Below, in pieces: positions 5,924 to 6,677 of a DNA stretch of 6,677 nucleotides; positions within the stretch are counted from its first letter, which is position 1; each line of letters starts with the position of its first letter. The notes under the pieces were generated by a model that saw only the letters and a program-made list of their open reading frames with translations, had not been told where the DNA came from and ran no database searches. Location: positions 1 to 6,677 of the forward strand of contig CAMLFK010000264.1 in the NCBI GenBank assembly GCA_946479255.1, in the 5' to 3' direction. The DNA comes from an uncultured Oxalobacteraceae bacterium (GTDB lineage Bacteria; Pseudomonadota; Gammaproteobacteria; Burkholderiales; Burkholderiaceae). The position numbers and the translations under genes are program-made.

Positions 5924-6595
5924 ATGACCCAAGCGACGGCGCCCGCGCCAAAACAGCCCGCACGCCGGGCTTGCTGCGCCCGGTGCCTGCGGCCTGCGAC
6001 TGCCTGCCTGTGCCAATGGGTAGCACCCGTCGTCACCCAAGTAGAATTGTTGATCTTGCAGCATCCGCTCGAAGTGGCCAATGCCAAGGGCAGCGCGCGC
6101 CTGCTTCACCTGTGCCTGCCTCATAGCCGCATCGTGGCGGGCGAACGCTTCGACCGGGCCGACCTGGAGCGCCTGCTGCGCGCGGACGGCCGCACGCCGG
6201 TCCTGCTGTATCCAGACACCCCCGACCATGCGGCGCTCGGCCTGCCGCATCCGCCGCCGCTGGAGCCCGGCATCGCCGGCGCGCTGGACAACTTGCGCCT
6301 GGTCGTACTGGACGGAACCTGGCGCAAGAGCCGCAAGATGCTTTATGTAAATCCTGCCCTGCAAGCGTTGCCGCGCTACGCCTTGCGCGCCATGCCGCCC
6401 TCGCATTACCGGGTGCGCAAGGCCCACGGTCCCGACCAGCTGTCGACGCTGGAAGCCGCCTGCTACGCGCTGGCCCAGCTGGAGGGGGCGGAATGCTGCG
6501 CGCCAGTGCTGCAAGCCTTCGATTGTTTCGTCGACATGCTATTGCAGCATCAGTTGACCGGGCGCGAAGAGGGAAGCGAACAACGCTTGAAATGA
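5924..6595 (+). CDS. tapT: DTW-domain tRNA-uridine aminocarboxypropyltransferase
   Basis: A 223-residue DTW-domain protein. The E. coli family member TapT (YfiP) transfers the 3-amino-3-carboxypropyl group from S-adenosylmethionine to uridine 47 of tRNA, making acp3U. Visible marks: an N-terminal cysteine cluster (Cys18, 21, 28, 30; CxxC-x6-CxC) likely to bind zinc, QHPLE (46-50), the name-giving DGTW (130-133) followed by RKSRKM, and YRVRK...LSTLEA (162-178). Length and order of motifs fit the family. The ATG at 5924 gives a natural start just before the cysteine cluster, but no clear Shine-Dalgarno precedes it, so initiation may be leaderless-like or weak. It acts in the cytoplasm. The stop codon lies inside the SOS promoter of the next unit. 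The symbol is by family resemblance; paralogues exist. Confidence 0.9.
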   Translation: MTQATAPAPKQPARRACCARCLRPATACLCQWVAPVVTQVELLILQHPLEVANAKGSARLLHLCLPHSRIVAGERFDRADLERLLRADGRTPVLLYPDTPDHAALGLPHPPPLEPGIAGALDNLRLVVLDGTWRKSRKMLYVNPALQALPRYALRAMPPSHYRVRKAHGPDQLSTLEAACYALAQLEGAECCAPVLQAFDCFVDMLLQHQLTGREEGSEQRLK

Positions 6596-6615
6596 CCGTC
6601 GGCTCGGCGTAAGAT
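6587..6615 (+). promoter_or_regulatory. SOS promoter overlapping the end of tapT
   Basis: TTGAAA (-35, 6587-6592) and TAAGAT (-10, 6610-6615) are spaced by exactly 17 bases. The -35 is in the last codons of tapT. The LexA box starts at the last base of the -10, so bound LexA would cover the start site (near 6622). The regulated gene lies beyond the window. Confidence 0.6.
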
Positions 6616-6634
6616 ACTGTATATCCATACAGTG
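6615..6634 (+). promoter_or_regulatory. LexA operator (SOS box)
   Basis: TACTGTATATCCATACAGTG matches the E. coli LexA consensus TACTGTATATATATACAGTA at 17 of 20 positions. It has the invariant CTGT-N8-ACAG core at 6617-6632. As single strand it folds into a 7-bp stem with an ATCC loop (6616-6633). It should repress the promoter at 6587-6615 until DNA damage activates RecA. In related bacteria such boxes precede lexA, recA or the imuA-imuB-dnaE2 mutagenesis cassette; which one is present here is unknown. Confidence 0.85.
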
Positions 6635-6677
6635 TGCGCCGGGAGGCCGGCAGAGGTTAAGGAGTGAAAGTCCCCAC
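6634..6677 (+). mobile_element. Probable 5' end of a group II intron (partial)
   Basis: Directly after the LexA stem-loop the sequence reads GTGCGCC, fitting the conserved GUGYG 5' end of bacterial group II introns. A short GCCGG/CCGGC hairpin (6638-6651 region) and then GGAGTGAAAGTCC resemble the beginning of intron domain I. These are self-splicing ribozymes that usually encode a reverse transcriptase/maturase and move by retrohoming. Placement right behind a hairpin suits class C introns, which choose sites after stem-loops. Only 44 bases are visible and no reverse transcriptase can be seen. The other reading is the plain 5' leader of the SOS gene, since AAGGAG (6659-6664) could serve as a ribosome binding site. 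Confidence 0.55.

Follow-up and report, generated by a model that had tools for sequence, protein, structure and literature searches.

The last 44 nucleotides of the window (by which we mean the whole stretch of DNA analyzed here, 6,677 nucleotides long) are very probably where a mobile group II intron begins, a IIB-like one lacking an endonuclease domain and belonging to a clade that homes to the LexA operator. The intron is already known; the logic of its LexA target appears undescribed in the open-access library searched, and the window adds a beta-proteobacterial member. The features that matter are at the right end of the window:

5924..6595, plus strand: DTW-domain gene (Pfam PF03942, 164.7 bits), the anchor for the intron-free site in relatives
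6587..6615, plus strand: promoter-like pair TTGAAA-17-TAAGAT, reading toward the box and the intron; a consensus match only
6617..6632, no strand: LexA box CTGTATATCCATACAG, a putative operator and the intron target; its letters match the intron-free loci L203, L205, L206 and L211
6622..6626, plus strand: presumed IBS2, TATCC (-12 to -8), 5/5 pairs with EBS2 GGATA of B. cenocepacia L165
6628..6633, plus strand: presumed IBS1, TACAGT (-6 to -1), 6/6 pairs with EBS1 ACTGTA of L165, L166 and L008
6634..6677, plus strand: group II intron, first 44 nt, truncated where the record stops; plasmid introns match by blastn at E 2e-12, box included; 41/44 to L012, L013 and L016

A preliminary description of this DNA had proposed a perfect 7-bp stem with a 4-base loop at the LexA palindrome, followed by a group II intron 5′ end, and both proposals hold. 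Positions 6616-6633, that is, the box plus one base on either side, read ACTGTATATCCATACAGT and form the 7-bp palindrome stem with its 4-base loop; folded as single-stranded DNA, this hairpin has -4.4 kcal/mol, which none of 200 shuffles equals. The box at 6617-6632 is the sole mismatch-free CTGTATATNNNNNCAG in the whole window. After it comes a single T, and then GTGCGCCGGGAGGCCGGCAGAGGTTAAGGAGTGAAAGTCCCCAC until the record stops at 6677, with GTGCGCC starting at 6634, in agreement with the GTGYG start of group II introns. The promoter-like pair at 6587-6615 is one found against 0.1 expected from shuffles, and since its -10 (TAAGAT) is five bases too far upstream to coincide with the TACTGT hexamer, it fails the stricter promoter rule used below. 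A terminator-like site was sought in 6500-6677 and none was found. Rfam applied to the window reports chance-level matches only, and no intron, 44 intron bases being too short for it. Because the record ends at 6677, the window displays no RT, domains V/VI or 3′ end; its EBS loops lie beyond the record as well, and the EBS assignments above are borrowed from relatives (L165, L166, L008). At the other end of the window, positions 192-491 of the minus strand encode a small Gly/Gln-rich protein with GGTPEQHAEAGRQSHKND repeats, which we presume to be akin to the stress-induced KGG-repeat proteins.

A blastn search with positions 6500-6677 matches Klebsiella plasmids over the box and the intron start (~86%, E 2e-12). 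The nearest 5′ ends that we found, 41/44 identical, come from a single Burkholderiaceae MAG (contigs L012, L013, L016); Paraburkholderia L008 has 39/44 and B. cenocepacia L165 has 37/44. One could argue that the window has no full intron, but only a dead remnant or an intron end joined on during assembly. The record does stop at 6677; the GGAG...CCCC stem of the window, compared by eye, contains a single A-C mismatch, at a place where the stem reads GGGG/CCCC in L001 and GGAG/CTCC in L012; and degenerate intron starts are found at boxes elsewhere (L004, L015, L022, L028, L261). But the junction at the box is exact, the identity to L012 is high, and the three MAG contigs themselves stop 60-72 nt inside the intron, as a multi-copy element would give, all of which makes a dead or misjoined end unlikely. 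Those contig breaks suggest, without being proof, that the window likewise stops inside an element present in several copies.

If 6634-6677 is the start of a mobile intron, its full-length relatives indicate what would follow. The lack of an RT had been named beforehand as evidence against an intron; sought via the full-length relatives, an RT/maturase is present. Two plasmid copies that we fetched continue beyond the box and the start as a group II intron that matches RF02005 and encodes an RT/maturase. In L001 (NZ_CP025467.1) the RNA matches RF02005 (group-II-D1D4-6) with 186.6 bits, and the RT/maturase is WP_004178082.1, of 495 aa; the RF02005 RNA is found in L002, L165, and L167 as well. 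The RT of the relatives matches TIGR04416 (376 bits) and RVT_1, its only Pfam domain at E 0.001, with no HNH endonuclease domain. Copies span GTGCGCC to CTACCGCGAC, 1,908-1,918 bp, and have flanks that differ at both sides. The 3′ end ...GAC (AC) is invariant in the relatives, with a D5-like hairpin seen by eye only; an Rfam search for domain V finds none in L001, and RF00029 is matched in the more distant relatives L233, L234, and L238.

This element has been described under two names, Kl.pn.I5 and Se.ma.I1, which are one element (PMC6764390, in excerpt), and the plasmid of the reference Kl.pn.I5 copy is pK245 (PMC3522654, in excerpt). In the first 50,000 of the 98,264 bases of pK245, WP_004178082.1 adjoins umuD. 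Judged by sequence, L001 is the same element type as Kl.pn.I5, and the 44 nt of the window are a diverged beta-proteobacterial relative. The excerpted PMC3522654 gives Kl.pn.I5 a consensus homing site and calls two MGH copies intergenic. Two new insertions of Kl.pn.I5 during a hospital outbreak, as given in the part of PMC8269217 available to us, imply that the element moves. The 5′ part of the element is matched by 4,389/72,556 plasmid records (4,243 over at least 80% of it), a pOXA-48 plasmid is among the carriers, and at least part of the element is present in 219/5,426 E. coli genomes. L258 and L261, both chromosomal copies of E. coli, begin with mutated letters (TATGCGCC; GTTCACC), one after a LexA box and the other after a one-mismatch box; the RT of L261, as annotated, is interrupted by an internal stop.

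The same place can be inspected in relatives without the intron. The DTW gene is present in 61/62 genomes of a related genus (in a separate search, the DTW protein was matched in 8/200 Burkholderiales genomes). Directly behind it, CTGT-N8-ACAG occurs without an intron at 27 of the 30 loci fetched from that genus; the box is absent in the other three (L215, L222, L229) and in 7 loci of other genera. At L203, L205, L206, and L211 the letters of the box are those of the window, and the next bases are AC, versus GTGCGCC in the window, so the alternative raised at the outset, that these bases are the ordinary leader of an SOS gene, fails. The gene that follows in L203, beginning another 16 nt on, belongs to the PA0069 family of radical SAM genes (472 bits, cut-off 360). 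L307, a closer genome with a DTW protein 71% identical, retains the DTW gene as well as the box and the radical SAM motif, and a strict rule finds box and radical SAM motif in 9 of the 18 further relatives of the window (L307-L324). In Paraburkholderia silviterrae (L166), the box of the same radical SAM gene holds a full intron.

Since the intron-free relatives keep the DTW gene, the box, and the PA0069 radical SAM gene, the intron of the window most likely entered between ACAGT and AC, between the operator and a start codon ~16 nt ahead, that of a radical SAM gene which for the window itself is beyond the record and is placed there from relatives. The earlier proposal of a retroelement just inside an SOS transcript agrees with this comparison, in which the intron would lie just inside an SOS-type leader. 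The conserved linkage of DTW gene, LexA box, and radical SAM gene (L203, L205, and others) suggests that, in that beta-proteobacterial genus, the PA0069-type radical SAM gene is a member of the SOS regulon. In the flanks of L167, an imuA gene and a PA0069-type radical SAM gene diverge from what seems to be a single common LexA box, and the intron lies toward imuA.

How many copies sit at LexA boxes? A survey that uses 17 nt of the intron 5′ end and no upstream letters avoids presupposing the box. In viral contigs it reports 91 stretches with 96 occurrences: 74 at a strict box, 6 at a one-mismatch box, 4 in tandem behind another copy, 1 too short, and 11 other. Eight of these 11 lack an EBS1 loop and do not continue into an intron; the other three are relatives with different targets (L271, L275, L282). 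We count 84/87 readable introns in this survey as LexA-linked. An RT-based survey, which has many contigs in common with the first, gives 60 loci, 57 of them readable, and 56/57 LexA-linked (51 strict, 5 one-mismatch); the lone exception, L157, is the same contig as L282. Both surveys together with annotated loci and genome matches yield 53 distinct 24-nt 5′ exons for LexA-clade introns, 47 strict and 6 one-mismatch, a set that misses L261 with its mutated intron start. The more distant L157, L169, and L192 (62-68% RT identity) and L232 are at unrelated target sites, and thus the LexA-box rule is a property of one clade.

That clade is patchy. An RT search at E 1e-60 has a match in 7/399 Burkholderiales and 13/394 Enterobacterales genomes, and the best places in those genomes belong to the LexA clade only in G003 and G007, both already known. 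The same search in the 62 genomes of the relatives' genus finds no RT of the family, an empty result that carries no weight in a set without a positive genome. In genome contigs, the exact 40-nt intron pattern has no match, and a looser pattern finds 27 stretches: 17 with an exact intron start, 4 with a degenerate one (L004, L015, L022, L028), and 6 with none (L003, L006, L009, L014, L019, L023). In L014 (6646-6677), a Pseudoalteromonas hairpin has CTGTATATAAATACAG inside a longer GGCGCACA...TGTGCGCC palindrome with T-runs; it is likely a two-way terminator and a decoy for the search pattern. Tandem introns occur behind one LexA box in L047 (four starts), L078, L111, and L122, so the box is still a target after insertion. 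Two genomes with LexA-box intron starts or fragments, G004 and G009, also have terminator-sited introns (L173, L180, L181; RF02001).

The insertion sites that can be named are the following:

E. coli chromosomal umuD (L259): sense
tisB side, E. coli CH468 (L262): antisense
hipA, downstream side (L257): no recognizable SOS gene
sbmC, Klebsiella michiganensis (L191): a 70-aa piece, 123.5 bits, below the cut-off of 179
imuA (L167): a piece, 48.9 bits, below the cut-off of 150
dinI-like and S24-peptidase (umuD-like) genes of prophages: LexA-box insertion sites
plasmid umuD, pK245 and pOXA-48: antisense

For chromosomal umuD the empty site is the common one: the joined flanks have a one-place match over at least 80% in 5,273/5,426 E. 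coli genomes, and L259 is the same leader with the intron.

To see how the target is read, we located the EBS1 loop in aligned introns, with a register first spotted by eye and then held the same for all. EBS1 pairs 6/6 with the last six exon bases in each of nine intron types (54/54, including G-U). Among the 362,880 possible assignments only the true one reaches 54/54; EBS1 and IBS1 taken from different types average 2.4 pairs, and a single combination, of the similar L169 and L232, gives 6. Seven of the nine types are relatives with other targets, and therefore the EBS1-IBS1 match reflects covariation rather than common ancestry. LexA-clade introns have ACTGTT or ACTGTA as EBS1, which is complementary to AACAGT/TACAGT, half a LexA box. 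EBS2 is the weaker part of the pairing: it is 5/5 in 7 of the 13 introns scored, and 4/5 in the other six, where, as the best of many positions, it is little above what a free choice of position gives. In B. cenocepacia L165, the box of which has the letters of the window, EBS2 GGATA pairs with TATCC. In an RT tree of 27 rows the LexA introns form one clade (88/98, the UFBoot of 88 being below the tool's mark of 95), so that operator targeting resembles one retargeting event.

Was the palindrome instead recognized as a DNA hairpin, the way class C introns use terminators and attC sites? The preliminary description had proposed this, with the LexA operator as the target hairpin. Its operator part stands; its hairpin part is not supported. 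The box is a palindrome, that of the window folds well, and the distal TG at -16/-15 is kept in all occupied enterobacterial-type exons though the pairing of the intron does not need it. But when ten target boxes are folded, seven give stems of 4-5 bp with -0.7 to -2.3 kcal/mol (the box of the window, at -4.4, is among the better ones), compared with -5.4 to -11.9 kcal/mol for three terminator targets, and one-mismatch boxes come without compensating changes. The RNA is RF02005 in the LexA introns and RF02001 in the three terminator-sited ones, from which the LexA introns are also apart in the RT tree. Nor do the introns lie behind terminator or attC hairpins, as class C introns do, being at LexA boxes instead; and in place of an EBS1 of 3-4 bp and no EBS2, there is a covarying 6-bp EBS1-IBS1 and, in several, EBS2 pairing. 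The class C label is therefore unsupported, and hairpin recognition is quite improbable. A IIB-like intron with an endonuclease-less protein agrees with the EBS1-IBS1 and EBS2-IBS2 pairing and the missing HNH domain of the relatives; the label is based on that pairing and that protein, the RT tree having been built without class-labelled references.

The distal half of the operator needs a further reader. Pairing-competent sites in the same contigs number 1,622 distinct, 70 of them with CTGT; occupied enterobacterial-type exons, which come partly from LexA-containing search patterns, have CTGT in 44/48 and TG at -16/-15 in 48/48. The distal half is kept beyond what the pairing needs, and thus something reads it. 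Proteins of IIB-like introns make contacts in the distal 5′ exon, at about -15 and farther out, which would fit. Conservation of both half-sites at occupied sites could also mean that the intron RNP is recruited by LexA-bound DNA or LexA itself, with base pairing secondary. But the EBS1-IBS1 covariation holds at the non-LexA targets of the wider family, needing no LexA, and a bound LexA would be expected rather to cover the site; we regard recruitment by LexA as very improbable.

For 55 distinct sites the flanks on both sides are available, and a simple ORF rule scores 31 of them as sense, 9 as antisense, 4 as both, and 11 as neither; the rule undercounts, since L259 (umuD, sense) is scored as neither. 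Antisense sites are about a fifth to a quarter of those classified. A TTG-type -35 lies 16-18 nt ahead of TACTGT in 27/32 sense sites (the 31 of the ORF rule plus L259) and 0/11 antisense sites (8 of the 9 of the rule, as L078 repeats L122, plus L256, L175, and L262 by hand), and in 103/3,200 shuffles (3%), under a promoter rule that was altered after viewing the sequences and with site lists partly assembled by hand. The earlier rule, which asked for a -10 match of 4/6 and misses TACTGT, gave 2/32 and 0/11. Sense sites without the promoter element include L166 and L167, both of the beta-proteobacterial ones. Thus the enterobacterial sense intron, as judged from these matches, usually begins just past a promoter whose -10 overlaps the operator. 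With the promoter overlapping the box, the 5′ exon may be only 10-15 nt long, and would still include IBS1 and IBS2. That the overlap is found in 27/32 sense and 0/11 antisense sites makes SOS-controlled expression of the intron likely, as an inference.

Comparison among copies shows that the intron inserts after the base following CTGT-N8-ACAG, with EBS1 ACTGTA/T pairing to the intron-side half-site and EBS2 often pairing to the AT-rich center of the box. The operator is left whole on the 5′ side, and most sense copies stand behind a promoter overlapped by the box. Beyond this, we propose the following. The distal half-site would be read by the intron protein. LexA would repress transcription into the intron, such that SOS induction would yield intron RNA and RT; splicing would restore the SOS mRNA; and operators freed of LexA may be better targets. 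Against this we count that an SOS promoter cannot drive the antisense copies, that IBS pairing by itself leaves the conserved distal half-site unexplained and EBS2 is weak in several introns, that Rfam detects no domain V in L001, that the 62 genomes of the relatives' genus gave no RT of the family, that the UFBoot of the LexA clade is below 95, and that the window has only 44 nt of intron.

The broader reading is one to which we give about even chances. The operator of a regulatory protein would be a fourth kind of group II target; an EBS matched to the LexA consensus would make a whole regulon into homing sites, each sense copy would be SOS-controlled, and damage would free the targets and induce the intron together, giving a damage-triggered retroelement that splices out of SOS mRNAs. 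A 2015 review, in the part available to us, sorts the targets of bacterial group II introns into three kinds, namely homing sites, terminators, and attC sites (PMC4424553). Among the titles, abstract openings, and excerpts listed from an open-access library, we found no report of LexA targeting by group II introns. PMC8269217 mentions LexA 0 times, and PMC3522654 is not among the papers of that library in which the terms group II intron and LexA both occur. If the reading is true, a conserved repressor operator joins the known targets, and the spread of a retroelement is tied to the DNA-damage response. Introns of this family are common on hospital plasmids, and the known copies are nearly all behind LexA operators. 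The element adjoins umuD, tisB, and sbmC, and so may alter SOS mutagenesis or persistence genes.

Among known systems, the RmInt1-type IIB introns have no endonuclease domain and combine EBS1/EBS2 pairing with distal exon contacts by the protein; their target is one insertion-sequence family. The LexA introns are alike in the pairing and in the endonuclease-less protein, but their target is the LexA operator. In integron integrase genes, the LexA box is built permanently into the promoter. In the LexA introns the box is the insertion target, and thus every new sense copy gains one, unlike the integrase; what the two have in common is a mobility enzyme under SOS control by a box (PMC8876359, in excerpt). 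Bacterial class C (IIC) introns resemble the LexA introns in their endonuclease-less RT, GTGCGCC start, and insertion adjoining an inverted repeat; they differ in the RF02001 RNA, the separate RT clade, and the true terminator hairpins (L173, L180, L181), and have a short EBS1 and no EBS2 (PMC7923331, in excerpt). Finally, the IIC-attC introns of integrons, like the LexA introns, have as their target a single DNA motif that recurs across many loci. Their motif is a recombination site, where they are reported to insert opposite to cassette transcription (PMC7923331, same excerpt), whereas that of the LexA introns is a repressor operator, where they insert mostly in sense.
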